From a virus, in IMG/VR virus record IMGVR_UViG_3300046170_000018, positions 1 through 54,118 of that record: DNA of 54,118 nt; one strand, written 5' to 3'. Shown piece after piece: positions 11,821-50,090 of this stretch. The translations under genes were made by a program, and so were the position numbers. The stretch's first letter is position 1. Every line of letters begins with the position of its first letter. Under the pieces are notes generated by a model. The model saw only the letters and a list, made by a program, of their open reading frames with translations, was not told the origin of the DNA and made no database searches.

Positions 11821-13143
11821 TCAAGCCAATTCGGACCTATTTTTGCCTCTAATAATAGAGGAACATTGAACTCCACACCCCATCTTAGGGTTGATAAGTT
11901 CAAGGTAGTTATTATTAGTATCTTCTATGACACTGATAACCTGATCTTCTTCATCAGGATGTACATCAATAACTATACTGTCGTGAACAGAATTTACTAT
12001 ACATGATTTCATACCCTGTAGCAAGGCATCAATATGCAATAATGCAATCGGAACAATATCTGCTGTAGCAAATGACTGCACCGGGTAATTCTTAATCTGT
12101 GTAAAGTGTGACACACGCCCACTAGCTTTACGTACCACATCGGGGAACGCAAACTCACGACCACTGGGCGTGGTTATTTTTTGTGTTTCTACAGCCTCTT
12201 TAGCCAGTCGGGAATGCCAAGCTGCGACCCCCTTGTACTTGTCTGTGAAGTGTTCGTAGTACGCTGCTTCTGCTTTGCTCCTACCGTATCCTGTTGCGCC
12301 GTAGAGTGGAGCAAACGTGTGCGCTTTCGCATCCTGTCTACTCGTAGGCTGACCAGCATCGGTAATAACTTTAGCGGTGTATGCATGTACATCAAACCCA
12401 GTAGATACTTCTTCAATTGCAACCTCATCTTGAGATAAATAAGCAGCAGCCCGAAACTCTAGCTGTGCAAAGTCAGCTTCAAGAATCTTGCCACCATCAA
12501 ATCGTGACACAAATACTTTCTTTACAGGAAACGTGCCGCCACGTGGCATGTTCTGCATGTTAGGATTAGCCCCACTAAAGCGACCAGTTGATGTGCGATG
12601 CTGCAATAGACTAACGTGTAACTTACCATCCTGCTTAGTGTAGTTACGTATGCCCTCAACAAAAGAAGATAGATATGTATCCACTGCACTAAGTCGTCTA
12701 ACTTTGTACAAGAAGTCAACTGCATCACTCATACCCTTTGATTTAGCACCAGCCTCTAGTAACTCTAAGTTTTGTTTAGATGTACTGAAACCGTTAGCAC
12801 TTAACCATTTAGCTGAAGGTGGCTTGAATTTAAAACCAGCAAGTGTCTCTGATGGTATAAATAAAAACCCTTCAGTATTACACTGAACACAGCGACTAGG
12901 CTTAGAAAAAGGTTCGCCGTTCTTTTTAGTCTTACGGACATAACCGGAACCGCTGCATGTGCTACACTGCTTGGCAACAGTTTTGTATAGCCTTTCAGTA
13001 CCACCAGTAATCAGGCTACGGAAGTCTGCAGTCTGCCATGTATGGGTCAATAGCATTACCCCAGTATGGTTTGTCCAATACCTTGCGGCTGTAGATAACC
13101 CAAGACAATTGCTCTGGGCTGTTAAGATTGATAGGTGTATCAC
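11821..13143 (-). CDS. polA: DNA polymerase I family (A), zinc insertion and polymerase domain
   Basis: The palm and fingers are complete: TSTGRFSG (184-191), motif A DFAQLEFR (Asp224), motif B RQDAKAHTFAPLYG (Arg269, Lys273, Tyr281), NYPVQSFATAD (351-361) and motif C HDS (His386-Asp387). Between the exonuclease and polymerase parts is an insertion with CSTCSGSG (C60, C63) and CVQC (C85, C88), like half of a DnaJ zinc-binding domain. A polymerase with a partial DnaJ central domain is the hallmark of phage HMO-2011 and its relatives. The first 36 codons are out of frame. The true N-terminus lies at 13846. Confidence 0.93.
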   Translation of the reverse strand: MIHLSILTAQSNCLGLSTAARYWTNHTGVMLLTHTWQTADFRSLITGGTERLYKTVAKQCSTCSGSGYVRKTKKNGEPFSKPSRCVQCNTEGFLFIPSETLAGFKFKPPSAKWLSANGFSTSKQNLELLEAGAKSKGMSDAVDFLYKVRRLSAVDTYLSSFVEGIRNYTKQDGKLHVSLLQHRTSTGRFSGANPNMQNMPRGGTFPVKKVFVSRFDGGKILEADFAQLEFRAAAYLSQDEVAIEEVSTGFDVHAYTAKVITDAGQPTSRQDAKAHTFAPLYGATGYGRSKAEAAYYEHFTDKYKGVAAWHSRLAKEAVETQKITTPSGREFAFPDVVRKASGRVSHFTQIKNYPVQSFATADIVPIALLHIDALLQGMKSCIVNSVHDSIVIDVHPDEEDQVISVIEDTNNNYLELINPKMGCGVQCSSIIRGKNRSELA

Positions 13144-13146
13144 CCA

Positions 13147-13401
13147 TCAGCTACGTACATGAGCCTGTAAGTCAGTAGTAAGTTGCTGCTTCTCTTGCTC
13201 AAACTCACTGCGTACCTCTTCTAGCTTAGTCAGGTCAACCGCAAAGCCTGTCTGATATATCTTAGTCAGACACTTAGCTACACGATTAGTCAGACGTGTG
13301 GTAGACAAGTAACCTGCATCAGCAGTAGTGTTTAGCCTACGCCATAGCTTTTCAGCAAGCTGCTGTGTAGCGTGAAGGTCAGCCGATAGATACTCAGACA
13401 A
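13147..13401 (-). CDS. polA: DNA polymerase A, middle fragment
   Basis: This frame links the exonuclease and polymerase parts: SEYLSADLHATQQLAEKLW and then KCLTKIYQTGFAVDLTKLEEV, the usual helical thumb-side region of family A polymerases. Its end (near 13147) shifts into a frame reading GDTPINLNSPEQLSWVIYS, also a standard family A segment, before the zinc insertion. Its start joins the exonuclease fragment through a GGGG run that would need one G fewer. It is not an independent gene. Confidence 0.75.
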   Translation of the reverse strand: MSEYLSADLHATQQLAEKLWRRLNTTADAGYLSTTRLTNRVAKCLTKIYQTGFAVDLTKLEEVRSEFEQEKQQLTTDLQAHVRS

Positions 13402-13426
13402 CTCAGAGTGAGGAATGTCTCGTGTA

Positions 13427-13846
13427 CTATATCCCCTTCTTGAAGTACTCCTTGAGTGTGTCCTGCTTCTTCGTATCTAACTCATAGCGTTCCGCACATG
13501 CTTCAAGTGACAACGGCTCTTTGATGCCACGCTGTAGTACATACTCGACAAGCATAGTGTCAAACACTGCGCCATCATACTTGAACCCTGACTCCCATAG
13601 CCATAGCAAATCATGTGCCACGTTGTGACATATGAGTACAGTAGTCTCATCAAGCCACTGTTGTACAGTAGCATGACCGTCAGGTGTAGCTACCACCTCA
13701 CTGTGGTCAAAGGTAATAATAACTTCTTCACCCCTGTCATTAAGCATACCCACCATAGTCAATGAGTTGTCTGGCTCAAATGGATCAAGGTGTAGCTTGC
13801 CATCACGCTTAGTCGTTGTATTCTCTACATCAAGTGTTAGTTTCAT
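13427..13846 (-). CDS. polA: DNA polymerase A, 3'-5' exonuclease domain fragment
   Basis: The first 139 codons of the polymerase gene. TLDVENT (metal-binding Asp6 and Glu8), CHNVAHDLLWL (second exonuclease motif with Asp) and FDTMLVEYVL (third region with Asp) match the proofreading 3'-5' exonuclease of family A polymerases. The ATG at 13846 overlaps the end of the nuclease-like gene upstream. The complete polymerase, 13846 down to 11821, would be about 670 residues once at least three single-base shifts are corrected. Confidence 0.85.
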   Translation of the reverse strand: MKLTLDVENTTTKRDGKLHLDPFEPDNSLTMVGMLNDRGEEVIITFDHSEVVATPDGHATVQQWLDETTVLICHNVAHDLLWLWESGFKYDGAVFDTMLVEYVLQRGIKEPLSLEACAERYELDTKKQDTLKEYFKKGI

Positions 13847-18420: not shown

Positions 18421-18591
18421 TCAACAGTCTTCCAACTCCTTCTGGAACTCAGTCCATGCGGCTTGGAATACCTCGTTAAAACTGTGGTAGTTGGCATCCT
18501 CAAAGGCAGCAGACGCTACCTCAAATATATCCTGCCCACTCCACTTGACTGCTTGTGATAACTGTATCCCTTTGATTTCATTATCAGTCAT
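18421..18591 (-). CDS. 56-residue acidic protein of unknown function
   Basis: The frame from ATG 18591 to TGA 18421 encodes a helical, acidic protein beginning MTDNEIKGIQLSQAVKW, with an Ala/Phe-rich middle. The start context is GGAGAATAGACAATG, a variant of the leader used by the neighbouring small genes. The ATG overlaps the stop of the upstream gene. It lies in the cluster of small early-type genes. Confidence 0.55.
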   Translation of the reverse strand: MTDNEIKGIQLSQAVKWSGQDIFEVASAAFEDANYHSFNEVFQAAWTEFQKELEDC

Positions 18592-19121
18592 TGTCTATTC
18601 TCCTTCATCCAATCGGGCATATCTCTGCCCTTGTTGTATCTAGCGAAACTCATCTTGTCTACTTTGTAGAACGCACGATAGGCTACGATAGGCCAATCCT
18701 CATCTGTCTTGCAGTCATCGTGTCCACTAAAGCATTGTGGGTGTGGTGTCATAAAGTTAGATACGTCAGGTATATATTGTTCTGCTTCAACTAGCGCATC
18801 AAAGTGACGCATAGACTTGTGACCTGTATTCACTGTGCGGTCATTGCGTATTGGGTAACGCCACATATACTCATCATTCATAGCCTTCATAAGACGTACA
18901 GCAAACCTATAGTTGATGCGTGTCTCTCTAGCCCATATAGTACATGGGTGGTTGGTGTAGGCTATCTTGTATAAGCCAGCTTCCTCTGCAAACTCAGGTG
19001 CATGGATACGCACGGCAGTGTTTAGCATCTGCGCTTCTTCCAATACCATCTTGCATATGTGCTGGTCACATAGCTGCTGGGCAATAGCCTCTGGCGTATT
19101 GTCAATGATAAACCTATTCAT
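18588..19121 (-). CDS. conserved phage protein with NHPC and WARET motifs
   Basis: A 177-residue protein. It begins MNRFIIDNTPEAIAQQLCDQ and continues with HICKMVLEEAQMLNTA, a Tyr-x(5)-NHPCTIWARET block and, at the C-terminus, AYRAFY and RDMPDWM. This arrangement recurs in many marine and T4-like phages, usually as a protein of unknown function. The Cys/His placement suggests metal or DNA chemistry but proves nothing. I chose the ATG at 19121, right after the upstream stop, over an upstream in-frame ATG at 19178. Confidence 0.65.
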   Translation of the reverse strand: MNRFIIDNTPEAIAQQLCDQHICKMVLEEAQMLNTAVRIHAPEFAEEAGLYKIAYTNHPCTIWARETRINYRFAVRLMKAMNDEYMWRYPIRNDRTVNTGHKSMRHFDALVEAEQYIPDVSNFMTPHPQCFSGHDDCKTDEDWPIVAYRAFYKVDKMSFARYNKGRDMPDWMKENRQ

Positions 19122-19122
19122 A

Positions 19123-19338
19123 TCAAAAATCCTCGACTTTTGTTTCAAACGCATCTTCGGCATATTTGGCCTCTTCAAACTTGGAACGTGTCGTGTAGTA
19201 TGCCATCATCGTAGCAGCCATCTCTGGATAATATTCCCAATCAGGTTTACCACCAGATTCAAATGAATATCCTATCTCTCTGTCAAGTGCTTCCAGTATG
19301 GCGTTGACTTGTTTCTTTGGTAGGTTAAGCGTCATCAT
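19123..19338 (-). CDS. 71-residue unknown protein
   Basis: It starts at ATG 19338 in the leader GGAGATTGACAATG. The frame extends to a TTG inside that leader, but the spacing favours the ATG. The product starts MMTLNLPKKQVNAILEAL and is helical and acidic. The TGA of the upstream gene lies inside the leader, so translation is probably coupled. No family is recognised. Confidence 0.55.
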   Translation of the reverse strand: MMTLNLPKKQVNAILEALDREIGYSFESGGKPDWEYYPEMAATMMAYYTTRSKFEEAKYAEDAFETKVEDF

Positions 19339-19340
19339 TG

Positions 19341-19574
19341 TCAATCTCCTTCATTCTCATAACACATATTGTCTATCAGATCAATGCGATCCTGATGTTG
19401 AGCCATCTTGTCTAGCTCAGACTGTACCGCTTCCATGATATCCGAATGCTCACCAATGCCAGCCGGATTGTTTAAGTATACAGCTATGTTGGTCTTGTGT
19501 AAGTTTACATTTCCAACAGCGTGTAGTCTCAGTGATGCTAGTAATTTACTAGGCTTTATTAATCTATCAAACAT
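19341..19574 (-). CDS. 77-residue unknown protein
   Basis: Starts at ATG 19574 in the leader GGAGATTGACGATG, a one-base variant of the repeated start context. The product begins MFDRLIKPSKLLASLRL, is basic at the N-terminus, then acidic. Its last codons (GAA GGA GAT TGA) form the ribosome site of the next gene. No family is recognised. Confidence 0.55.
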   Translation of the reverse strand: MFDRLIKPSKLLASLRLHAVGNVNLHKTNIAVYLNNPAGIGEHSDIMEAVQSELDKMAQHQDRIDLIDNMCYENEGD

Positions 19575-19758
19575 CGTCAATCTCCCATAGTTCGTCTACT
19601 TCTATGCCATCACAGACATATGAGTAGTCATAGTTAGGTATCTCAAACAGTTTTACACTGCCATCCTCATTGCGAATGTAATCATCCGCATCGTCATCCC
19701 ATACAGCTACAGGCATATCCCATACCAATACGCTATATGATTTATCTGGGTCAAACAT
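19567..19758 (-). CDS. 63-residue acidic unknown protein
   Basis: Starts at ATG 19758 in the leader GGAGATTGACAATG. The product begins MFDPDKSYSVLVWDMPVAVW and is strongly acidic (runs of Asp), with beta-strand-like alternation. Its end overlaps the next gene by 8 bases. Acidic beta proteins of this size among early genes can be DNA mimics, but there is no direct evidence. Confidence 0.55.
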   Translation of the reverse strand: MFDPDKSYSVLVWDMPVAVWDDDADDYIRNEDGSVKLFEIPNYDYSYVCDGIEVDELWEIDDV

Positions 19759-19770
19759 TGTCAATCTCCA

Positions 19771-19929
19771 TTACCGTTCCACAGGGTAGAATACTTCTAC
19801 CATGCTATCACACTTAGGGCAAGTCAGTATCGTGACCATACTAAACTCATCACCACGATGTTCATCAGGGTTGATGTCATAGTCTACGTTCCAGATTAGT
19901 TCTGTATCTTTACAGTGCCAACAGTTCAT
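19771..19929 (-). CDS. 52-residue zinc-ribbon protein
   Basis: A short frame from ATG 19929 to TAA 19771. The product has CWHC at residues 3-6 and CPKC near residue 38, the two knuckles of a zinc ribbon separated by an acidic beta-rich stretch. It may bind nucleic acid or a protein such as host RNA polymerase, by analogy with other phage zinc ribbons. That is inference. It overlaps the downstream leader region closely. Confidence 0.6.
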   Translation of the reverse strand: MNCWHCKDTELIWNVDYDINPDEHRGDEFSMVTILTCPKCDSMVEVFYPVER

Positions 19930-19930
19930 G

Positions 19931-20071
19931 TCATTTCTCCTTCAATGCATCTATTACTAGATAGATAAGTATAGCTGTACCAATAGCCAGATACCCAATG
20001 ATGAACAAATCATCTATGCCCACATCAGGCATCTGGTTTTGTAGGCACAGGATTGTGTTACAGTCAAGCAA
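19931..20071 (-). CDS. 46-residue single-span membrane protein, TTG start
   Basis: The only fitting start is a TTG at 20071 in GGAGAATTGACATTG, the same leader as the neighbouring genes with TTG in the place of ATG. The product has a short polar N-terminus with two Cys, then one hydrophobic span (LFIIGYLAIGTAILIYLVI) and a KEK tail, so it is probably an inner membrane peptide with its tail in the cytoplasm. Its stop lies 2 bases before the zinc-ribbon ATG. Confidence 0.5.
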   Translation of the reverse strand: MLDCNTILCLQNQMPDVGIDDLFIIGYLAIGTAILIYLVIDALKEK

Positions 20072-20077
20072 TGTCAA

Positions 20078-20341
20078 TTCTCCACTGCATAAATTAATAG
20101 GGTAGGCAGTTTAACCACTTGCCTAGGTGTCTTCACACCAAAAGGTGAGGGGGTTGCACACTGACCATTTACACGAATTATTCTTCCACCCCTAAGTCAC
20201 GAGACCCTGTATTTATACTGTTAGGCCTTCAGTTCGCATGTCTAGGCAGTTTTCTATTGGCCTTTATCGCCGTGAAACTTCACCTAGTCACGCTTCCCTA
20301 GCTAGTCCTTCTTATTCAGACTGTCACTATGCTAGAGCATA
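20078..20341. other. non-coding gap with alternative hairpins and a repeated 10-mer
   Basis: No gene is visible. Plus strand 20128-20150 contains GGTGT-CTTC-ACACC and then CACC-AAAA-GGTG, which share the ACACC arm and cannot form together. TAGGCAGTTT occurs at about 20103 and 20263. GGCA-N11-TGCC flanks the first copy. The gap separates two groups of leftward small genes and could hold a promoter, an RNA switch or a small RNA. I could not fold it into a tRNA. Confidence 0.4.
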
Positions 20342-20521
20342 TTACGCAGTTTCAAACTCTTTGACAAACTCAAGTTCAATATGCTTGTCAGGATACAATG
20401 CTTGTGCCATGTCGAGTGCATGTTCTACCGCATGGTTCCAGATAGGTTGCTCCAAGGGCTGTGGGTGTACATTGTACACACCACTAACGCCATCCATTTT
20501 AATGCCAACTTCCCAATACAT
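20342..20521 (-). CDS. 59-residue unknown protein
   Basis: The frame from ATG 20521 to TAA 20342 starts 2 bases after the stop of the upstream gene. The product begins MYWEVGIKMDGVSGVYNV and ends with an acidic helix. Tight spacing supports it. No family is recognised. Confidence 0.5.
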   Translation of the reverse strand: MYWEVGIKMDGVSGVYNVHPQPLEQPIWNHAVEHALDMAQALYPDKHIELEFVKEFETA

Positions 20522-20522
20522 A

Positions 20523-20912
20523 TTATGCTACCTTCCTAATTGCTTTGCGGCCTTGCTTATTACGAGCAAGTTCACGCAGATTACTTACAGTAAACCCACC
20601 AATCTTGATGGAGACTACCTCATCACGGCTCTTACGCCGCACTGCTGCACCTAGTTCCTTGTGCATGCGGTCAAGAAAGATGCCAGCAATTGCCTCTGTC
20701 GTGTACTGTAAGTACCCGCCGCAGTCTTCCTTTGCATGCCGTGCAGCTTGCAGTGCAAGGTCATAGAACTTGTAACGACCAAGCTTCACGCCATGATACT
20801 CAGCATACAAGGCTTCTACTTTAGCAAGCTTTGCTTCTACTTGTGGTGATGCAAGCACTTGTCCTGTCTTGCCTGTTGAACGCTGGTGAAATGTTACAGT
20901 CTTTATAGCCAT
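20523..20912 (-). CDS. 129-residue basic unknown protein
   Basis: Begins MAIKTVTFHQRSTGKTGQVL and is basic, with long helices and a C-terminus like a nucleic-acid-binding tail (ELARNKQGRKAIRKVA). AAAGGAG lies 8 bases before the ATG. The palindrome at 20957-20972 lies about 45 bases upstream of the start, inside the end of the preceding gene. No domain is recognised. DNA or RNA binding is only a guess from charge. Confidence 0.55.
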   Translation of the reverse strand: MAIKTVTFHQRSTGKTGQVLASPQVEAKLAKVEALYAEYHGVKLGRYKFYDLALQAARHAKEDCGGYLQYTTEAIAGIFLDRMHKELGAAVRRKSRDEVVSIKIGGFTVSNLRELARNKQGRKAIRKVA

Positions 20913-20925
20913 GATATAATCTCCT

Positions 20926-21177
20926 TTAGTTGGTTAGTGTGTTAGTAGTTGAGGTTAGTCCAACATTGGACTTGATATGTCTTATGACATACTTGGCACG
21001 ATTGATAAACCACCGTGCTTGTTTTTGGTCATATGACATAACATGTTGTGCATCAGATAGGATAGACATAGCCAACATGCAAGGCATATCTTCGTGCAGC
21101 ATATCTTCCATGTCTAGTGGTGTGCAACCATACAAGTCTAAATACCTGCCATAAATTTCAGCATCATCATTACCCAT
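20926..21177 (-). CDS. 83-residue unknown protein ending in the palindrome
   Basis: Begins MGNDDAEIYGRYLDLYG, is acidic with several Met, then basic. The C-terminal Lys-Ser-Asn-Val-Gly-Leu is encoded by the repeated 16-bp palindrome (20957-20972). The same six residues occur where the palindrome falls inside another gene at 23285, so the element appears to have been inserted in frame. No family is recognised. Confidence 0.55.
   Translation of the reverse strand: MGNDDAEIYGRYLDLYGCTPLDMEDMLHEDMPCMLAMSILSDAQHVMSYDQKQARWFINRAKYVIRHIKSNVGLTSTTNTLTN
20957..20972. repeat. 16-bp inverted repeat AGTCCAACATTGGACT, copy 1
   Basis: Seven-base arms around a central CA, within the 3' end of the 83-residue gene and 45 bases before the next leftward start. 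Identical to four other copies and in the same orientation. Confidence 0.85.
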
Positions 21178-21301
21178 AGATTTTCTCCTGAATCATGTGT
21201 TTAGTGCGAACCTGTGCTTTACGGGTACGCTTCCAGTCATCACGCTTTGCTTTGCGGGGTTTCACTTTCAGTGACTTCATTTTCTCTACTTTGATTTGCA
21301 T
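21170..21301 (-). CDS. 43-residue very basic protein
   Basis: The frame from ATG 21301 to TAA 21170 encodes MQIKVEKMKSLKVKPRKAKR followed by a further Lys/Arg-rich helix. About 40 percent of residues are Lys or Arg, as in small nucleic-acid-binding phage proteins. It overlaps the gene upstream by about 60 bases and the one downstream by 8. Expression is plausible but not certain. Confidence 0.45.
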   Translation of the reverse strand: MQIKVEKMKSLKVKPRKAKRDDWKRTRKAQVRTKHMIQEKIYG

Positions 21302-21410
21302 TGTGTTTATCTTTCTTTCTGTTGTATTTGGTTTTGTCTGGCACTGCTTGTGTCCTGCGGCGTGACTGTGCCACTGCCTTCGCTACAGGGTTGATAGGTT
21401 TGATACGCAT
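21240..21410 (-). CDS. 56-residue basic protein
   Basis: Starts at ATG 21410 in GGAGCATTGACAATG, another copy of the repeated leader. The first 36 residues (MRIKPINPVAKAVAQSRRRT, then a Lys-rich stretch) resemble a short basic protein seen in other marine phages that ends soon after NRKKD. Here the frame runs about 20 codons further into the next gene, so the end may be shifted by an indel. Confidence 0.45.
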   Translation of the reverse strand: MRIKPINPVAKAVAQSRRRTQAVPDKTKYNRKKDKHNANQSRENEVTESETPQSKA

Positions 21411-21421
21411 TGTCAATGCTC

Positions 21422-21511
21422 CTATGAAAGTGCGTACTGAATAATGTCTACAACTTGTGTGATAGCTAACACAAGAATAATGATATGACCTAAGTGAATT
21501 TTCTCATACAT
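21422..21511 (-). CDS. 29-residue membrane micropeptide
   Basis: The frame from ATG 21511 to TAG 21422 encodes a peptide whose middle, HIIILVLAITQVVDII, is hydrophobic enough for a membrane span. CGGAGATTT precedes the ATG by 4 bases, and the 16-bp palindrome lies just upstream of that ribosome site (21526-21541). Its control by the palindrome seems likely. Confidence 0.45.
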   Translation of the reverse strand: MYEKIHLGHIIILVLAITQVVDIIQYALS

Positions 21512-21525
21512 ATTAAATCTCCGTT

Positions 21526-21541
21526 AGTCCAACATTGGACT
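21526..21541. repeat. AGTCCAACATTGGACT, copy 2, operator-like position
   Basis: Intergenic. On the minus strand it follows a TATACT box by 6 bases and precedes the ribosome site of the 29-residue peptide by about 3 bases, where bound protein or an mRNA hairpin would block expression. An AT-rich hairpin, AAGTAA-N5-TTACTT, lies upstream at 21556-21572. Confidence 0.8.
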
Positions 21542-21618
21542 TGTCTAGTATATCTAAGTAAATATATTACTTTCACTAAAGTATCAAGTAATATTTTACA
21601 TAAGATATACATAAGAGG

Positions 21619-22254
21619 TTAAGCGATACCATGCAGCTTTCGCCATGTAACCCATGTAATCGCCTGCAATTCATATGCTTTCAGCTTACGACCATTGACA
21701 CGGCAACGACTAGCAGCTTGGCGATAGGCATCTTGCAGATTGCGATACTCGACAATGCCAATATTGGTTTTGTTATCGGTCAGATTGACACGCTCATTGT
21801 ATGCAATGTTTCGGGCATGTCCATCTACGGTACAGGTATCATCACCCATGATGTTCTCATAGAAACAGACAATCTTCTTGCCATTAAGAATAGTCTTAAT
21901 GCTGTCATGGCTTGGTCTAATCTGCCCTAGTATCTGCCATGCCTTGTCTCGCATAGCATTGTAGGTGCAGACAGATACACTATCTACGCTACGACCATTG
22001 ACAAACGCATCAATCAAATCACGGGCATTTGTCACATTGGTAGACCAACGATTGTTAGGTGACAATGCCGCCACAACGCCAGCGGCAACATGAATAGAGA
22101 TGCCATAGGATTTGTATTGCTCCGCAAGTTGGCGGCACTCCTCGTATGCTTCGGCATACCATGCAATGCCATGTGCCACATCTTCAGGCTTTGCCTTGCG
22201 GCGCATAGCGATAATGTTTTTGATAGCGATTTGCATATTAAATTCGGTTTTCAT
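21619..22254 (-). CDS. conserved phage protein, possibly HhH glycosylase-like
   Basis: A 211-residue basic protein. Conserved-looking blocks are AAGVVAALSPNNRW, VSVCTYNAMRDKAWQIL, ICFYENIMG-like text, CTVDGHARNIAYN and YELQAITWVTWRKLHG. This pattern is frequent in marine phages. The helical layout with VDGHA followed by a late ITW helix recalls HhH-GPD base-excision glycosylases, but I cannot confirm a helix-hairpin-helix. GGAGTAACACT precedes the ATG at 22254. Confidence 0.55.
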   Translation of the reverse strand: MKTEFNMQIAIKNIIAMRRKAKPEDVAHGIAWYAEAYEECRQLAEQYKSYGISIHVAAGVVAALSPNNRWSTNVTNARDLIDAFVNGRSVDSVSVCTYNAMRDKAWQILGQIRPSHDSIKTILNGKKIVCFYENIMGDDTCTVDGHARNIAYNERVNLTDNKTNIGIVEYRNLQDAYRQAASRCRVNGRKLKAYELQAITWVTWRKLHGIA

Positions 22255-22258
22255 AGTG

Positions 22259-22486
22259 TTACTCCGTAAAAGGTGGTTCCATAGGGAACGTGGTTACAAT
22301 TTCAAAGTCATCAGTCATCCAGCGTATATCACTAGTCTGGACGGATTGCAAGCGCATTGAGCCACTAGGCCATGCTGGTGTCCTGTCAGGCAAAGGTATC
22401 ACCTGCCACAACTCACCATGCTCATTGACACGATTCTTGCCATGGCGGGTCTTACCCTGCAAGATAACGATTTTTCCTGTTTGCAT
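22259..22486 (-). CDS. 75-residue unknown protein
   Basis: Starts at ATG 22486 with GGAG 6 bases upstream. The product begins MQTGKIVILQGKTRHGKNRV, with beta-strand-like segments and a Trp-rich middle, and ends FPMEPPFTE. It overlaps the upstream Cys-rich gene by 35 bases. It may be a small beta-barrel protein; no family is recognised. Confidence 0.55.
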   Translation of the reverse strand: MQTGKIVILQGKTRHGKNRVNEHGELWQVIPLPDRTPAWPSGSMRLQSVQTSDIRWMTDDFEIVTTFPMEPPFTE

Positions 22487-22757
22487 TTTGTTTCTCCACT
22501 TCGTGAATACAAGCCTGCAAATACCCCCAATGCCTTGGGCAATCAGGTGGATCACCCTCAAATGACATGACAGATGCTTCAGCATCATAGATGTTATAGT
22601 CAATGTCAAGCCTTGCTTGCTGATAGCCTTCATCATATTCAGCATAGTAAAAGGTTTCAGCATGACAAAAACCACAATAGTAATCATCCGAACTGTTCAC
22701 ATAGAACAGGTCAATATGAGTGTACGGTGTGTCACAACAAGCACATTTTCTAGCCAT
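22452..22757 (-). CDS. Cys-rich zinc-finger-like protein
   Basis: A 101-residue protein starting MARKCACCDTPY. CACC near the start and CGFC near residue 29 make a likely zinc knuckle pair. The rest is acidic with many Tyr and Asp (YAEYDEGYQQARLDIDYNIY) and another Cys-Pro. The start is ATG 22757 with GGAG 8 bases upstream, and palindrome copy 3 lies just before that ribosome site. A regulator or adaptor is possible. Confidence 0.55.
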   Translation of the reverse strand: MARKCACCDTPYTHIDLFYVNSSDDYYCGFCHAETFYYAEYDEGYQQARLDIDYNIYDAEASVMSFEGDPPDCPRHWGYLQACIHEVEKQNANRKNRYLAG

Positions 22758-22778
22758 ATTCAAATCTCCGATTTGTTA

Positions 22779-22794
22779 AGTCCAACATTGGACT
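22779..22794. repeat. AGTCCAACATTGGACT, copy 3, operator-like position
   Basis: Intergenic, before the Cys-rich gene. On the minus strand it begins 10 bases after a TATACA box and ends 9 bases before GGAG. The arrangement (AT-rich hairpin, TATAC box, palindrome, CGGAGATTT, start) is the same as at copy 2, which suggests a duplicated control unit. Confidence 0.8.
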
Positions 22795-22813
22795 AGGTTA
22801 GTAGTGTATATAA

Positions 22814-22849
22814 GTAATAACACTATCACTAATGTTCTAGTGTTATTAC
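22814..22849. promoter_or_regulatory. 12-bp perfect hairpin upstream of the copy 3 control unit
   Basis: GTAATAACACTA (22814-22825) and TAGTGTTATTAC (22838-22849) are perfect complements with a 12-base loop. It starts 10 bases after the stop of the upstream leftward gene (22860). It could terminate that transcript or bind a dimeric regulator. A related shorter hairpin stands at the same place near copy 2. Confidence 0.6.
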
Positions 22850-22859
22850 GTTATTCACA

Positions 22860-23078
22860 CTAAAGCAAGCTGTCAAGTATTGCCAAGGCATCAGCCTTGT
22901 CTTTTTCCTTGCGATAGGTATCCAGCATAGCATCCGCTTGACCTGTCACATAAACCCGAAACTCAGGCCGTGTCTCAGGCTCATAGCTACGGCTGAAAGC
23001 CAGTGTATCCATAGCTTTCCAACTAGAGCCTACGGCTTTGTGCCGACCCATGTCAATGATTGCACCACGTTTAGCCAT
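22860..23078 (-). CDS. 72-residue unknown protein
   Basis: Starts at ATG 23078 with GGAGTAAATAAC upstream (an in-frame ATG at 23105 has no ribosome site). The product begins MAKRGAIIDMGRHKAVGSSW and ends with a charged helix. CAAGGC-ATCA-GCCTTG near its end is one of many short hairpins in this stretch. No family is recognised. Confidence 0.5.
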   Translation of the reverse strand: MAKRGAIIDMGRHKAVGSSWKAMDTLAFSRSYEPETRPEFRVYVTGQADAMLDTYRKEKDKADALAILDSLL

Positions 23079-23118
23079 GTTATTTACTCCGTAAATTGAG
23101 GGCATCTAGACTGCAGCA

Positions 23119-23721
23119 TTAAGCTGCAGCCTTTGTGTTAGCGGCATCAAGCATCTCAAGTTGCTCTTTCAGAGCCGCAAGGAATGATGCTTTTGAGATG
23201 CCATTCATCTCACAATCAAGCAAAGCTTGCATTGCAATGTCTGAAGCAGACTTTGGATCATTAGCCTTATCAGCTTCGCTGTCTAGTCCAACATTGGACT
23301 TGTCATCAGCCTTCGGCTCTACAGGTGTCTCTGTATCAGCCTTCGGCTTTGGATCAGCCTTTGGCTTCATGGCAGCTTGTAAAGCTGTAAGACTGGTAAA
23401 GCCCTTTTTGCTTTTAGCAATGAAGTCACGACAAGCTGTCTCATTCGCAGCAAACCACATGGCTTCGCTTCTACGGCGTTTGTCGATACCGGCAATGCCA
23501 CAATCTTTCAGCCTTGCTGAAGCGATACGATCACCGCCTTCAGCCTTCAGCTTTAGCATCAGCTTTCCAAGCCGTGTATCAAAGCCATCAGCCTTCGTTG
23601 ACTTGGTGAAACGAGCCTTATCACCTTTGGTGATTTGCTTCCATTCTTTAGCCAAGGCAAAGCCTTCAGCTTCCAGAGTGTTGTTTACAACAGGGACGAT
23701 TTGAGTTGATGAATTTTCCAT
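23119..23721 (-). CDS. Lys/Ala/Asp-rich protein with palindrome-coded linker
   Basis: A 200-residue protein. The N-terminal 110 residues form a basic helical domain (FALAKEWKQITKGDKARFTK, RLGKLMLKLKAEGGDRIASA). Residues about 118-150 are a low-complexity linker of KAD and PK repeats, coded by several short hairpins and by palindrome copy 4 (KSNVGL). A small helical domain follows. First gene of the leftward block after the control region, with AAGGAAG before the ATG, so it may be the earliest expressed and regulatory. No known domain was found. Confidence 0.55.
   Translation of the reverse strand: MENSSTQIVPVVNNTLEAEGFALAKEWKQITKGDKARFTKSTKADGFDTRLGKLMLKLKAEGGDRIASARLKDCGIAGIDKRRRSEAMWFAANETACRDFIAKSKKGFTSLTALQAAMKPKADPKPKADTETPVEPKADDKSNVGLDSEADKANDPKSASDIAMQALLDCEMNGISKASFLAALKEQLEMLDAANTKAAA
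23285..23300. repeat. AGTCCAACATTGGACT, copy 4, inside a coding region
   Basis: Lies in the linker of the 200-residue protein and is read as Lys-Ser-Asn-Val-Gly-Leu, the same frame as copy 1. It is surrounded by AGCC-TTC-GGCT and AGCC-TTT-GGCT hairpins at 23308, 23338 and 23356. Confidence 0.85.
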
Positions 23722-23880
23722 TTCGGCTTCCTTTATACTATCTTTAGGTTTTATAGGGAGATATCCCCTTTCACTACGTTCAAGGGGTATATCCCGTAAA
23801 ACCGTAAGAAGATAGATATAAGTTTGAGGTTGAAGCCTCGCCTGCGATCCTCTGCGCCTGCCGTTTCGCCTGCGGTTGCA

Positions 23881-24158
23881 GCTATCTTCGATAGCGAAAC
23901 TCGTGCGCTAAACTCGTGACACATAGCGAGGCTTGGCAGATTGTGGTGGCTGGTATGACTATCACCTTCAGTGATAGGGGGTGTAGTCCAACATTGGACT
24001 TATGGTTCACCTTTGGTGAAAGGATTAGATGCATCAACCTTACAACTTGTTGTAAATCTGTAGGTCTGGCCTTCACAAATCATCTTTCAGATGGCAACTG
24101 ATACCATAACAGTTGTTCCAACTGGGTTTGGTTGGTCAACTACTGCATATTCTATGCA
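23881..24158. repeat. array of short hairpins with TTC (minus strand GAA) loops
   Basis: GCTATC-TTC-GATAGC (23881-23895), CTATCAC-N5-GTGATAG (23959-23977), TTCACC-TTT-GGTGAA (24006-24020), GATGCATC (24028-24035), TTACAAC-TT-GTTGTAA (24040-24055), CATCT-TTC-AGATG (24081-24093), CAGTTG-TTC-CAACTG (24110-24124) and TGCATA-TTC-TATGCA (24144-24158). The stems differ but the loops recur. On the minus strand the loop is GAA; DNA hairpins with a GNA triloop are unusually stable. Confidence 0.8.
23985..24000. repeat. AGTCCAACATTGGACT, copy 5, in the control region
   Basis: Non-coding copy between two other hairpins (23959-23977 and 24006-24020), 264 bases upstream of the first leftward gene. Confidence 0.85.
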
Positions 24159-24344
24159 ATATCAAGGGCTTGCTTGGCTATCTGCCTCTAATCCTGCGCT
24201 TGGTTGCGCATAATGCTGGCGCACACACGCCTTAGAGAGGGGGCAGGCAGGAGCCAGCCGGGGGTGGGGGCGTTATATGTATGTAGAAATACACAGATCA
24301 GGTAAATTCACTGTTAACCACACTAACAACTGACACTATGTACA

Positions 24345-24380
24345 TGCACAAGCATTGTGCAACTGCCTAAAAAATAGGCA
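24345..24380. other. two strong hairpins upstream of the rightward promoter
   Basis: TGCACAA-GCA-TTGTGCA (24345-24361) and TGCCTA-A5-TAGGCA (24364-24380) are perfect and adjacent. They lie about 50 bases before the -35 box of the rightward promoter, and might be a regulator site or the last elements of the palindrome region. Confidence 0.55.
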
Positions 24381-24427
24381 ACTGTAGATACCCCTATGGA
24401 CCATTTCGCCTATTCATAATAAATGAC

Positions 24428-24456
24428 TTGACAAGCTATGAAAAATCTGCTATAAT
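24428..24456 (+). promoter_or_regulatory. consensus sigma-70 promoter for the rightward block
   Basis: TTGACA (24428-24433), 17 bases, TATAAT (24451-24456): a perfect match in both boxes and spacing. It faces the late genes that start at 24626. Such a promoter needs only the host housekeeping sigma factor, in line with the absence of a phage RNA polymerase. Confidence 0.85.
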
Positions 24457-24619
24457 TATATATAACTTAAACACACTTAAAGTGTTTCACTTAACTACTA
24501 TATAGTTAAATTATAAATACACTTAAATGTATTATATATTTTCTTTGTTAACTCACTTAACTATAACACTTTAAATGTACCCTCTATAAATTAATATTTG
24601 TGCTTATTAAAGAAAGTTC
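24457..24619 (+). promoter_or_regulatory. AT-rich 5' leader with inverted repeats
   Basis: The expected transcript leader is about 160 bases. It holds ACACT-TAA-AGTGT (24473-24485), TTAACTA-N5-TAGTTAA (24491-24509) and AATACA-N6-TGTATT (24516-24533), plus repeats of CACTTAA near 24474, 24488, 24520 and 24554. These may control the first rightward genes; no known riboswitch is recognised. Confidence 0.5.
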
Positions 24620-24625
24620 TTGACA

Positions 24626-24841
24626 ATGGCGAAGAAATCTGTAAAACTATATACAGATAACGTACTTGATGCATTCTATGATGCTATCCGTACTAACTCA
24701 TTAGACCGTCTTCACATACCACACAGTGATGTGTTTTATGTGCGTAATGCATTGGATACTAAATTCTTTCCACGTACCTTTACACTTAAACAAACAGAAG
24801 ATTACATGCGTATGGAAGGATGGACTGAAAGAAATGAGTGA
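24626..24841 (+). CDS. 71-residue unknown protein, first rightward gene
   Basis: The ATG at 24626 follows TTGACA directly, echoing the leader of the small leftward genes, though the ribosome site (AAAGAAAG) is weak. The product begins MAKKSVKLYTDNVLDAFYDA and ends with an acidic segment; mixed alpha/beta. It is the first gene behind the consensus promoter. Its stop overlaps the next start (TGATG). No family is recognised. Confidence 0.6.
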   Translation: MAKKSVKLYTDNVLDAFYDAIRTNSLDRLHIPHSDVFYVRNALDTKFFPRTFTLKQTEDYMRMEGWTERNE

Positions 24842-25056
24842 TGGAACTCTATACCTTTTTTGTATTCTTCTCCGTGATCGTAATGCCAGACGGAGAAATT
24901 AAATCATTCTCTAAGCATGTGATAGAGTGTCCTGCTATGGAGACTGTATTGGAAATGCATGAGCCTAAGATGGATAGCGGTGAGATTGTAGACTGGTCAG
25001 CTACGTGCCTGACAACTCAGCTACCATTAAAAATACCACAAGGACTGAAGACGTAA
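24841..25056 (+). CDS. 71-residue protein with hydrophobic N-terminus
   Basis: Begins MELYTFFVFFSVIVMPDG. The first 15 residues are hydrophobic, so it could be a short beta strand or a weak membrane anchor. The rest is mixed with a Cys near residues 30 and 55. I use the ATG at 24841, which overlaps the upstream stop, over a GTG at 24838. Function unknown. Confidence 0.5.
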   Translation: MELYTFFVFFSVIVMPDGEIKSFSKHVIECPAMETVLEMHEPKMDSGEIVDWSATCLTTQLPLKIPQGLKT

Positions 25057-25057
25057 C

Positions 25058-25351
25058 ATGGCTATACCTGAAAGAGTTAAAACCAAGATGAAGGAAGAAG
25101 GCTTGACTGGCGTTAATAAGCCAAAGCGTACTCCTAGTCACAAAACCAAGTCACACTGCGTAATGGCTAAAGAAGGTGACACATATAAATTTATTCGCTT
25201 TGGACAGCAAGGCGTTTCCGGTGCTGGTAAGTCTCCTAAGACTGCTAAAGATAAAGCACGTAAGAAATCATACTACGCACGTCACGATGCGCAGGGTAAG
25301 CCGACCAGCAAGCTGTCAGCGAAGTATTGGTCACATAAAGTTAAATGGTAG
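25058..25351 (+). CDS. conserved basic marine-phage protein
   Basis: A 97-residue basic protein with KRTPSHKTKSH, IRFGQQGVSGAGKSPKT, KARKKSYYARH and a final KLSAKYWSHKVKW. This arrangement is familiar from many cyanophages and pelagiphages as a conserved protein without known function. The ending in particular is nearly invariant in my memory of the family. It lies in a row of small Lys-rich proteins. DNA binding or head packing is possible. Confidence 0.7.
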   Translation: MAIPERVKTKMKEEGLTGVNKPKRTPSHKTKSHCVMAKEGDTYKFIRFGQQGVSGAGKSPKTAKDKARKKSYYARHDAQGKPTSKLSAKYWSHKVKW

Positions 25352-25367
25352 TATAGGAGATATACCG

Positions 25368-25796
25368 ATGGCAAGTAAGCTATTAAAGGCAGCAGCAAAG
25401 AAAGCTAAAGATGCAGCTATCGCAGCAGCTAAAGCTAAGAAGGCTAAAGAGCTAAAGGCTAATCAAAAGAAGCCTATCAATGAGTTGATGAGTAAAGCAC
25501 CTGCAGCACAGGCTGAGTCTGGTATGGGTACAGCAAGTAAGACACGTATTACTTCTGGAGAACGTGGTAAGGCAATGGCTGGCGCAAAGCGTGAATACAA
25601 GGCTACCTTGAATAAACTAGACAAAGACCCTAATCTATCAGATGAGCAAATGGAAATTATGCTTGGCAAACTAAAAGATTTGGAAAAGCGGTACGGTGCT
25701 GGTGTTAAACCTACCGCCGATATGAATCGTGGTGGCATGGCTACCAAAAACTATGTGAACCCAGTTAAGATTGTAGACAATAGAAAGAAACGATAA
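25368..25796 (+). CDS. Lys/Ala-rich protein with KNYVNPVKIVDN tail
   Basis: A 142-residue protein beginning MASKLLKAAAKKAKDAAIAA, so an alanine/lysine helix, then a coiled coil (about 75-110). It ends RGGMATKNYVNPVKIVDN plus a basic tail. The same RGGM and NYVNPVxIVDN words end the 68-residue protein at 38656. The ATG at 25368 has GGAGA upstream; the open frame extends further but reads through another gene. Function unknown. It may be virion-associated through the shared tail. Confidence 0.6.
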   Translation: MASKLLKAAAKKAKDAAIAAAKAKKAKELKANQKKPINELMSKAPAAQAESGMGTASKTRITSGERGKAMAGAKREYKATLNKLDKDPNLSDEQMEIMLGKLKDLEKRYGAGVKPTADMNRGGMATKNYVNPVKIVDNRKKR

Positions 25797-26194
25797 TGGC
25801 TAAACCAACCTCAAAGAAAGCAGCAATGGATGATGCAGTTAAGGGCATGAACATGAAACAGCTAACCGAAAAGATGGCTGACCCTAAAACGCCAGCACCT
25901 ATCAAAGCTGCAGCTAAACGCAGACTAGACCGTATCTCTGGTGCCGATAAGACTGCCCCTCTATCACAAATGGCTAAAGGCGGCAAGGCTACTAAGAAAG
26001 TACCTGTAATCTCTATTGGTGTAGGCATGGCTGAAATGCCTAAAGGTAAAGACAAAGCTAAGATGATGCGTGGTGGTATGTCAGGTGGTAAGGAACATAT
26101 GTATGCAGCAGGTGGTATGGTTAAAGACAACCCCGGCCTAAAGGCACTAAAAGCTGCAAGCCCAGAAGCTTACAATAAAATCACTAAGTCATAA
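25796..26194 (+). CDS. 132-residue basic protein with MRGGM motif
   Basis: Begins MAKPTSKKAAMDDAVKGMNM. It has a KGGKATKK patch, an MMRGGMSGGK word at about residue 90 and AAGGMV at about 105, short Gly-Gly motifs that recur in several proteins of this phage. The start overlaps the previous stop (TAATG). Unknown role, probably with the other Lys-rich proteins of this cluster. Confidence 0.55.
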   Translation: MAKPTSKKAAMDDAVKGMNMKQLTEKMADPKTPAPIKAAAKRRLDRISGADKTAPLSQMAKGGKATKKVPVISIGVGMAEMPKGKDKAKMMRGGMSGGKEHMYAAGGMVKDNPGLKALKAASPEAYNKITKS

Positions 26195-47313: not shown

Positions 47314-49277
47314 GTGTGGCTATTGATTATAGCTCTGGTGCGTTTGAGGCTAATATGGCTCAGGGAGTTGGTACAGTTACGGCTGCTACTGGCGGCGCAT
47401 ATAGTCTTGCTAACTTTAGTTATGACAGTGTGAGCTTTAGTGTAGCAACGCAAGAGCCGGGACCATCAGGTTTATTTTTTAAACCTGACGGATATAAAAT
47501 GTATATTTGTGGTGTCACTGGGGTTGTGGCTTTAGGATTTAAAGAAATACATGAATATGATTTAAGTACTGCTTGGGATTTTTCAACTGCTTCATATAGT
47601 CAAAGTTTAAGTGTTTCATCAGCAGAAACAACACCTCAAGGTATTTTCTTTAAAGACGATGGAACTAAAATGTTCATCATTGGAAATACAGGTGATGCTG
47701 TTCACGAATATACTTTAAGCACTGCTTGGGATATTTCTACTGCCTCATTTGTTGATTCAACTTCAATCAGTAGCCAATCAACTAATCCACAAGATTTATT
47801 TTTTAAATCTGATGGAACTAAATTGTACGTTCTTGCCGGATTTGGTAGTGCTATACATCAGTATACTTTAAGTACGGCTTGGGATGCCTCATCTTTATCA
47901 TATGACAGTGTGAGTTTTGATTTAGATAATACTATAAATGCATCATCTGCTAAAGGTATATTTTTTAAGCCTGATGGAACAGAACTATGGGCAGTTTTTG
48001 ATGGGGGAAATAGACTTGCTCAATTTAATTTAAGTACAGCTTGGGATGTTTCTACTGCCTCATATGATTCTGTTATTGGTTTAGTTAATTTTAGTGAAGA
48101 AGGTACTCCACAAGCTTTATTTTTTAAGTCTGATGGAAGCAAATTGTACATAGTTGGTCAGACAAATGACACAGTTTATCAATACTCAACTTTACCTGAC
48201 ACAACTATAGATATTTCTAGTGGTACATACTTTAATTATACTCCGTCTAGTACTACTAAGTTTGCTTTTTCTAATCCACCTGCATCAGGTGCGGCAGCGG
48301 GTTTTGCTTTGGCATTAACTGGTGCAAATGTGGCTGAAGGGTACGACATAGCTAATGCTAGTTATGATGGTGTGAGTCTTAGTTTATCACCTTACACTTC
48401 TATTAGAGGTCTTTTTTTTAAAGACGATGGGACTAAGCTTTACGTTGTTTCTGCTGGTGCTACTGCTGTTTACGAATATAATTTAAGCACCGCTTGGGAT
48501 GTATCCAGTGGAACCTATAGTCAGGCTTTTGATGTTGGTAATCAAGAAGGAAATCCCAACACTATTTTTTTCAAAGATGATGGCACTAAAATGTATATTT
48601 TAGGCAGAAATGGCGATGATGTAAATGAGTATAATTTAAGTACTGCTTGGGATATATCAACTGCATCTTATAGTCAAGTTTTTAGCGTTGCTTCACAAGA
48701 AACCAATCCTTTCGGTATGTTTTTTAAACCTGATGGTTTGAAACTGTACATTATTGGATTAATAAATAACACAGTCTATGAGTATACCTTAACTACCGCT
48801 TGGGATGTATCCAGTGCTAGTTATAGTTCAAATTCTTTTAGTGTAAACAGTCAAGATACTAACCCAAGAGAAATTAATTTTAATGATAACGGAACAAAGA
48901 TGTATATGATTGGAATAGCAAATGACAATGTTTACGAATATGATTTAAGCACCGCTTGGGATGTAAGTACCGCCTCATATAATTCAGTTTCATTTTCTAT
49001 TGGCAGTCAAGAACTCAACGCAACCGCATTTCGTTTTAAATCTGGCGGTTTTAAAATGTATGTTGTTGGGGCTTTAAACACAGTTTACCAATACAGCACG
49101 AGCGGTGCAGGAAGTGCTGCTACCTTTACTTACCCATCCTCAGTAGAATTTGCTGGCGGTACAGCCCCGGATGGCCCAGCTATTGGTGAAACAGATGTGT
49201 TGGTCTTTTATACAAACGATGGTGGTACAACTTATCAAGGCTTCAAGCCGGGGATGCAATGTCGTGAGTGTAGCTAG
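47310..49277 (+). CDS. tail protein with two inserted five-repeat beta-propellers
   Basis: A 655-residue protein. Ten repeats of about 48 residues, FFKPDGxKMYIxG, then YEYxLSTAWDISTASY, are in two sets of five. The first is between the N-terminal IDYSSGAFEA and TIDISSGTYFNYTPS. The second lies between FSNPPASG and TYPSSVEFAGGTAPD. These are the three parts of the compact 119-residue protein upstream. The repeats resemble bladed propellers used in sugar or receptor binding. The end GFKPG should read on to DAMS; one missing G near 49250 shifts it. Confidence 0.78.
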   Translation: MSVAIDYSSGAFEANMAQGVGTVTAATGGAYSLANFSYDSVSFSVATQEPGPSGLFFKPDGYKMYICGVTGVVALGFKEIHEYDLSTAWDFSTASYSQSLSVSSAETTPQGIFFKDDGTKMFIIGNTGDAVHEYTLSTAWDISTASFVDSTSISSQSTNPQDLFFKSDGTKLYVLAGFGSAIHQYTLSTAWDASSLSYDSVSFDLDNTINASSAKGIFFKPDGTELWAVFDGGNRLAQFNLSTAWDVSTASYDSVIGLVNFSEEGTPQALFFKSDGSKLYIVGQTNDTVYQYSTLPDTTIDISSGTYFNYTPSSTTKFAFSNPPASGAAAGFALALTGANVAEGYDIANASYDGVSLSLSPYTSIRGLFFKDDGTKLYVVSAGATAVYEYNLSTAWDVSSGTYSQAFDVGNQEGNPNTIFFKDDGTKMYILGRNGDDVNEYNLSTAWDISTASYSQVFSVASQETNPFGMFFKPDGLKLYIIGLINNTVYEYTLTTAWDVSSASYSSNSFSVNSQDTNPREINFNDNGTKMYMIGIANDNVYEYDLSTAWDVSTASYNSVSFSIGSQELNATAFRFKSGGFKMYVVGALNTVYQYSTSGAGSAATFTYPSSVEFAGGTAPDGPAIGETDVLVFYTNDGGTTYQGFKPGMQCRECS

Positions 49278-49623
49278 GTTAATGCAAATGGGTGCGGCTG
49301 GTGTGCCTGTTGGTTGGACTGACCCTGACCTTGCCAATGCAAGTTATGATAGTGTGTCTTTAGATGTTAGCGCACAAGAACCTCAACCTAATAACGTATT
49401 TTTTAAGCCTGATGGCACTAAAATGTATGTTCTTGGTCAGACTGATGATGAGGTAAACGAGTACGATTTAAGTACGGCTTGGGATATTAGCAGTGCATCA
49501 CACAATCAAAACTTTAGTGTTGCAAGTCAAGAAATAGTTCCAACAGGAATTAGTTTTAAGCCTGATGGCAGCAAAATGATTATTGTTGGTTATACGATGT
49601 TGAAGTTCTTGAGTACAATTTAA
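49264..49623 (+). CDS. free-standing five-repeat propeller protein, N-terminal part
   Basis: GTG 49264 follows the same overlap pattern as the previous gene start. The product begins VSVARLMQMGAAGVPVGW and has the first two propeller repeats (FFKPDGTKMYVLG, SFKPDGSKMIIVG). After GYT the frame shifts and continues at 49596 with DVEVLEYNLSTNWDIS. The complete protein (49264-50090) would be about 275 residues with five repeats. Confidence 0.6.
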   Translation: MSVARLMQMGAAGVPVGWTDPDLANASYDSVSLDVSAQEPQPNNVFFKPDGTKMYVLGQTDDEVNEYDLSTAWDISSASHNQNFSVASQEIVPTGISFKPDGSKMIIVGYTMLKFLSTI

Positions 49624-50090
49624 GTACAAACTGGGATATTAGTACCGCATCCTATTCACAGGCTTTCAGTGTATCTTCACAAGACGCAACACCAATGAAT
49701 TTAAACTTTAACACTGCTGGCACTAAGATGTATATTCTTGGATGGGCTAACGACACAGTTTTTGAATATAATTTGTCTACTGCTTTTGATATTAGCACTG
49801 CATCGTATAGCAATAATTCTTTTTCAGTATCATCACAAGACGTTTCGCCTAGAAGTATTTTCTTTAACCCCGATGGCGATAAAATGTTTATGGCTGGGCA
49901 ATCAAGTGACACTGTTTATCAATACAGTTTATCAACTAATGACGATGTTTCTAGCGCATCCTATGACAACGTAAGTTTTGATATGTCGTCCCAAATCGTA
50001 GTTCCAAATGGTTTATTTTTTAAAAATGATGGCTCAAAAATGTATGTAGTAGATTTATCGGCAGACACTATTTACCAATATTCAACATAG
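49596..50090 (+). CDS. free-standing propeller protein, C-terminal part
   Basis: This frame carries the last three repeats (NFNTAGTKMYILG, FFNPDGDKMFMAG, FFKNDGSKMYVVD) and ends DTIYQYST. It needs the shift near 49596 to join its N-terminus. The first ATG in frame is at 49695, but a start there would break a repeat, so it is not a separate gene. It probably acts with the larger propeller protein at the tail tip. Confidence 0.65.
   Translation, partial: DVEVLEYNLSTNWDISTASYSQAFSVSSQDATPMNLNFNTAGTKMYILGWANDTVFEYNLSTAFDISTASYSNNSFSVSSQDVSPRSIFFNPDGDKMFMAGQSSDTVYQYSLSTNDDVSSASYDNVSFDMSSQIVVPNGLFFKNDGSKMYVVDLSADTIYQYST

Follow-up and report, generated by a model that had tools for sequence, protein, structure and literature searches.

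The 54,118-nucleotide (nt) stretch of viral DNA analysed here, IMG/VR record IMGVR_UViG_3300046170_000018 (hereafter the window), is by its sequence an HMO-2011-type marine phage, and it carries five identical 16-bp palindromes in its early region. Phages of this type form one of the dominant viral groups of the sea. The palindromes probably form the operator set of an autoregulated repressor encoded by the phage itself, the product of open reading frame (ORF) 23119-23721 (f4), and they would work in a manner resembling stoperators. Four findings established at the level of sequence underlie this reading: the sites exist, they are confined to the early operon, they show a strand bias, and residues of f4 co-vary with one base of the site. 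The window helicase has 88% identity to the helicase of Puniceispirillum phage HMO-2011, 76% to that of Roseobacter phage CRP-1 and 72% to that of CRP-345; early genes run leftward from ~24.4 kb and late genes run rightward.

The word AGTCCAACATTGGACT occurs exactly five times in the window, at the places and in the single orientation that an earlier note on this DNA had reported, with the centre CA on the plus strand and all copies confined to 20957-24000:

Site 1, 23985-24000, minus strand: in the long leader of the early genes, the first of which begins ~265 nt downstream.
Site 2, 23285-23300, minus strand: within the linker of the first early gene (ORF 23119-23721), where it reads (K)SNVG(L).
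Site 3, 22779-22794, minus strand: a TATACA box (22805-22810) lies 10 nt upstream, and the CGGAG-ATG of ORF 22452-22763 lies downstream (start taken as the ATG at 22757).
Site 4, 21526-21541, minus strand: a TATACT box lies 5 nt upstream, and downstream come the GGAG ribosome site and, ~14 nt away, the ATG of a small leftward ORF.
Site 5, 20957-20972, minus strand: gene strand AGTCCAATGTTGGACT, within the 3' end of ORF 20926-21177; the ATG of ORF 20523-20912 follows ~45 nt downstream.

This is the commonest exact 16-mer in the whole window, and it is the entire repeat unit, since the flanks extend it by no more than a base or two. The full 16-mer has no further place in the window at up to 3 mismatches, and when the centre is left free the next best window site has 3 arm mismatches. 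The comparison with shuffled sequence proposed in the earlier note bears this out: in dinucleotide-shuffled sequence, matches with no more than 3 mismatches averaged 0.7 and never came to 10. Likewise, in 20 Markov simulations of the same dinucleotide make-up a perfect palindrome with 7-nt arms never appeared twice, against the five observed. The note was also right that sites 3 and 4 stand between a TATACA or TATACT box and the ribosome site of a leftward gene, and that two in-gene copies (sites 2 and 5) are read in the KSNVGL frame; site 1 can be read in this way too, in a doubtful leader ORF (23882-24076). No Rfam family was found in 19000-26000.

Sites of the same type recur in HMO-2011-type relatives, where the earlier note had proposed to look for them. 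The general form GTCC(A/G)NNNN(T/C)GGAC is found 2-8 times per locus in ~150 related loci, 700 sites in all, and the word is genome-specific: the place is conserved and both arms change together. HMO-2011 has AGTCCGACAGCGGACT four times and its inverse once (AGTCCG....CGGACT five times), while CRP-1 and CRP-345 have variants of (T/C)GTCCAANNTTGGAC(A/G) five times, of the form (C/T)GTCCAA..TTGGAC(A/G). The GTCC/GGAC core is present in 277 of 277 sites from 55 distinct loci, in a scan whose pattern itself required that core, and copies with one core mismatch are almost absent. Scanning IMG/VR for AGTCCAANNTTGGACT returned many single chance matches, and the stretches with at least two copies are nearly all HMO-2011-like; among 19 such contig stretches 13 encode f4 and 4 more are HMO-like fragments. 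Conversely, nearly every IMG/VR locus encoding f4 bears 2-8 sites.

The sites begin in the early leader, cover the first 3-4 kb of the early operon and then fade out. In 71 loci fetched by f4, which hold 366 sites, one site lies more than 1 kb onto the late side, in 282 kb. With genes called by a simple script, 52% of the sites are intergenic (17% expected), 38% have a start codon 10-30 nt downstream (6% at random) and 146 of 307 lie within ORFs. Three positions are conserved, namely the leader (59 leader sites counted in relatives, from 61 deduplicated loci), the linker of the first gene and the spacers before certain ribosome sites; a position like that of site 5 is also occupied in loci L217, L230, L222, L239 and others. 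The in-f4 copies of distinct relatives share one frame in 48 of 48 cases in an otherwise variable linker, and the encoded residue tracks the word (SNVG with A words, SDVG with G words). The shared KSNVGL frame is best explained by linkers that tolerate coding change.

The presence of f4 and of GTCC-type sites coincides. When the early proteins of 17 genomes were clustered, f4 was found in the 11 genomes with such sites and was absent from the 6 others. Four of these 6 have a different first gene of ~200 residues together with another palindrome in a like layout, and no repeated word was found in the other 2; the palindromes of relatives without f4 are TGTCACTCAGTGACA, TGTCACTNAGTGACA, TGTCACNNNGTGACA, GTGGTANNTACCAC and TTTTACC/GGTAAAA. 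No dispersed palindrome was found with the method used in the early regions of CRP-2, CRP-603, CRP-207, CRP-235, CRP-3 and HTVC033P. In two sister-clade loci (L175 at 4521, L178 at 3934) a site lies directly after the stop codon of the first gene and is followed by a strong, terminator-like hairpin that has a T run.

The protein is linked to the word by co-variation between residues 112 and 116 of f4 and base 6 of the site, where T112 goes with A, and S112 together with K116 goes with G. It was first seen in 57 proteins, in which K116 accompanies the G word in 13 of 13 cases, and close pairs that switched from A to G at base 6 show T112S in 10 of the 10 pairs compared. A second set comprised 79 f4 N-terminal domains outside the first, from newly fetched relatives. 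Here S112 with K116 goes with the G word in 13 of 14 proteins with sites (the remaining one is G.T), and the HMO-like K112 does so in 8 of 8. T112 goes with the A word in 45 of 47, with G in one HMO-like protein and one undecided, and S112 with R116 goes with mixed G.T words in 2 of 3 and with A in one. Base 6 changed at least 16 times on a tree of 128 proteins from both sets that was built with residues 105-121 left out. Across 8 supported independent pairs, column 112 agrees in 7.7 and is opposed in 0 (p=0.008), and K116 agrees in 6.8 and is opposed in 0; the two columns rank top of all, the next best reaching 4.2. The outer base (position 1/16) gives no readable code, since its one clade-specific class (C/T..A) offers no independent contrasts.

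Furthermore, nearly all copies within a genome switch word together with f4. HMO-2011 shares 78% identity with the window in a 277-residue marker gene and 40% in f4, and has a different word; locus L106 shares 63% in the marker and 72% in f4, and has the same word. By these comparisons the word follows f4 rather than phylogeny, and the word and f4 travel together. A tree of a late control gene, usable in 23 loci, needed slightly more word changes than the f4 tree (5 vs 4, 6 vs 5), a difference too small for use.

These data make f4 the likely reader of the palindrome word, and its predicted structure agrees with such a role:

f4, candidate site-binding protein, 23119-23721, minus strand: 200 residues, the first early gene, a member of the HMO-2011 gp74 family, to which CRP-1 gp01 also belongs.
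Predicted recognition helix, codons 111-118, 23368-23391, minus strand: T112 is encoded at 23386-23388 and residue 116 at 23374-23376.

The protein has an alpha-helical N-terminal domain (14-121), a low-complexity linker that holds site 2 and a small helical C-terminal part. The AlphaFold model of full-length f4 is poor (pLDDT 68), and that of the N-terminal domain alone, made with 99 sequences, reaches pLDDT 84 and closes with helix 94-103, a turn and helix 111-118. Since helix 111-118 closes the domain, residues 112 and 116 stand one turn apart on its last helix. The helix layout together with the co-variation points to a helix-turn-helix with a recognition helix, although no solved fold matches. 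Among 50,697 phage records f4 is found only in HMO-2011, CRP-1 and CRP-345, all three of which have sites. Its sole significant sequence or fold match is S4S2E1, by length and identity apparently HMO-2011's own protein; no weight was placed on weak DUF3102 matches (E>3).

In the mechanism that we favour, the N-terminal domain of f4 would read one half-site per subunit through helix 111-118, so a dimer would cover the 16-bp dyad. The earlier note had suggested the operator of a dimeric regulator, and this gains support from the GTCC/GGAC dyad core, the early-operon confinement and the co-variation of the word with the predicted recognition helix; it had named small basic or zinc-containing early proteins as possible binders, and the evidence indicates the 200-residue product of 23119-23721 instead. 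Sites in the leader and in its own gene suggest that f4 is autoregulatory. Occupying sites at intervals within the first 3-4 kb of the early operon, f4 would lower early transcription, blocking initiation where a site stands just downstream of an internal promoter and obstructing elongation at the remaining sites in the fashion of stoperators. The target would be DNA rather than RNA, and a repressor of this kind could serve in lysogeny or superinfection immunity. Two possible internal promoters lie at the sites concerned:

Possible internal promoter, 21547-21606, minus strand: TATACT and an inverted repeat rich in A and T directly precede site 4, an arrangement that relatives keep at their corresponding site.
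Possible internal promoter, 22805-22860, minus strand: TATACA and an inverted repeat rich in A and T directly precede site 3.

The boxes stand at set distances, TATACA 10-11 nt or TATACT 5 nt upstream, at sites 3 and 4 and their counterparts, so a bound protein would cover the likely transcription start. Such boxes precede 27 of 127 sites that stand before ribosome sites, compared with 26 of 585 control ribosome sites. At the other sites, which have no promoter, the effect would need to be on elongation or on RNA; an autoregulated repressor with both operators and roadblocks is favoured because it accommodates the two kinds. No promoter of the leader was identified with confidence. The AT-rich inverted repeats have a loop like GAWACWTTAGTGA and are conserved at like places in L217, L222, L229, L279 and others; they may be a promoter, a terminator or the target of a second regulator.

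Several observations weigh against a DNA-binding repressor. Promoter-like boxes stand before only the 27 of 127 sites just mentioned, and f4 matches no known DNA-binding family in Pfam, PHROGs, NCBIfam or the PDB, by sequence or fold. The second protein set is distinct from the first in sequence, but not fully independent of it in ancestry. In addition, the centre on the gene strand is TG in most sites of 97 loci and CA in 28, with 25 ties, and a plain dyad operator needs no strand preference; where base pair 6-11 is mismatched, it is G.T in 27 cases and A.C in 2, which an RNA hairpin would explain. The strongest alternative is that f4 binds the word as an RNA hairpin (a 6-bp stem with an ANGU-type loop) in early mRNA and controls either translation or the elongation of transcripts, much as coat-protein and antiterminator hairpins do. 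The word folds at about -6.5 kcal/mol (z -3.4), and many sites have a start codon 10-30 nt downstream; after such sites there is often a ribosome site within a second small hairpin. In L217-L296 the ribosome site after such a site is often in the loop of this second hairpin, for instance CAAAC-GGAG-TTTG or TTAAC-GGAG-TTAA. However, the outermost pair on the gene strand is mostly A.C or C.A (168 and 218) and seldom the RNA-tolerable G.T or T.G (23 and 28), and many sites lie within coding sequence, well away from starts. Both orientations can occur in sister clades that have other palindromes (3 and 3 in L175), and the stoperators of Cluster A phages are DNA sites with the same strand bias (PMC6550527). 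We therefore consider the RNA hairpin unlikely, though the strand bias and the G.T excess leave it with about a fifth of the probability.

It is improbable that the sites are centromere-like (ParB/parS-type) or origin-binding sites for plasmid-like maintenance or replication. A multi-copy 16-bp palindrome that is tolerated in genes and lies near one protein gene would suit such a function, but the strand bias and the association with start codons do not. No parS-like word is present, and among the early proteins scanned, the only ones in which ParA was sought, no ParA or ParB family matched; one member of 99 had a KorB match at E=0.06. Recognition by a host-encoded regulator is still less probable. 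Phages do borrow host regulators, but a fixed host factor would keep one word, and here the word differs between close phages along with one phage gene. In addition, no relative of f4 was found in 84,980 prokaryote genomes (one per species), and integration in a sequenced genome was not seen. The least probable account, raised in the earlier note, is that mobile palindromic elements spread in the early region, and despite identical copies in one orientation, some of them in genes in one reading frame, it was rejected on a repeat unit that stops at the 16-mer, positions conserved across relatives, an invariant core and copies that switch word jointly and with residues 112 and 116.

Beyond the early operon, a perfect TTGACA-17-TATAAT promoter with TG before the -10 box lies at 24428-24456 on the plus strand, ahead of rightward genes. 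The family A DNA polymerase (11821-13846, minus strand) is apparently split into an exonuclease (13427-13846), an 84-residue ORF (13147-13401) and a polymerase (11821-13143); in HMO-2011 it is one gene of 2043 nt, and the split may reflect assembly frameshifts or a split gene. ORF 18588-19178 (minus strand) has a weak but above-cut-off match to the pyrimidine dimer DNA glycosylase family PF03013, and about a dozen degenerate repeats of ~153 nt occupy 47459-50059, in a late, presumably tail-related region.

More broadly, we tentatively propose, with rather less assurance than the repressor itself, that HMO-2011-type phages encode an undescribed family of sequence-specific regulators with dispersed operators and a readable code (T112 for A, S112 with K116 for G, S112 with R116 for mixed words). 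This family might act as the switch for immunity and early shut-off in a dominant group of marine phages, of which subgroup I has an integrase. In the open-access literature no description of repeats or of a repressor in HMO-2011-type phages was found, which is not proof of novelty; in the available text of a 2022 survey of HMO-2011-type genomes, neither 'promoter' nor 'repress' occurs (PMC9038755). The same text finds an integrase in most phages of subgroups I and III and refers to experiments in which CRP-3 integrated. If the repressor reading is right, a candidate regulator can be named, an orphan protein family gains a function and a base-recognition code, and specificity groups of the regulator become predictable from sequence. 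Moreover, lysogeny and superinfection immunity would become testable, most subgroup I phages having an integrase according to that text (PMC9038755).

Several known systems resemble this one in part. ParB-parS also uses multi-copy 16-bp palindromes, but here there are a strand bias, an operon-restricted layout and no ParA or ParB homologue among the scanned early proteins. The SAS/ESAS repeats of Cluster K phages are, in the available text of two reports, repeats of a single orientation that directly precede start codons, some having inverted repeats with a consensus that differs between subclusters (PMC3203893, PMC12699233). The present sites share the preference for one orientation; 38% of them have a start codon 10-30 nt downstream, against 6% at random, and nearly half lie in ORFs. 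The SAS word GGGATAGGAGCCC has one 2-mismatch match, at chance level, and one protein co-varies with the word, whereas those texts name no binder for ESAS. The closest likeness is to the stoperators and Rep of Cluster A mycobacteriophages (L5, Bxb1). The L5-type site has 13 bp, lacks symmetry and is bound by a two-domain monomer (PMC9283540), and its copies are spread genome-wide, whereas those described here are 16-bp dyads with GTCC/GGAC half-sites within 3-4 kb of the early operon; unlike Cluster A Rep, which has an N-terminal helix-turn-helix, f4 has no significant Pfam, PHROG, NCBIfam or PDB match. Cluster A stoperators have one preferred orientation, and the divergence of their motif tracks the cognate repressor (PMC6550527). 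The Cluster A repressor, once on its sites, halts elongation and gives immunity, and f4 may do likewise. Common to both systems are a genome-specific word in many dispersed copies, most of which face one way relative to transcription (here in 97 loci against 28), and a site upstream of the repressor gene, which fits autoregulation.

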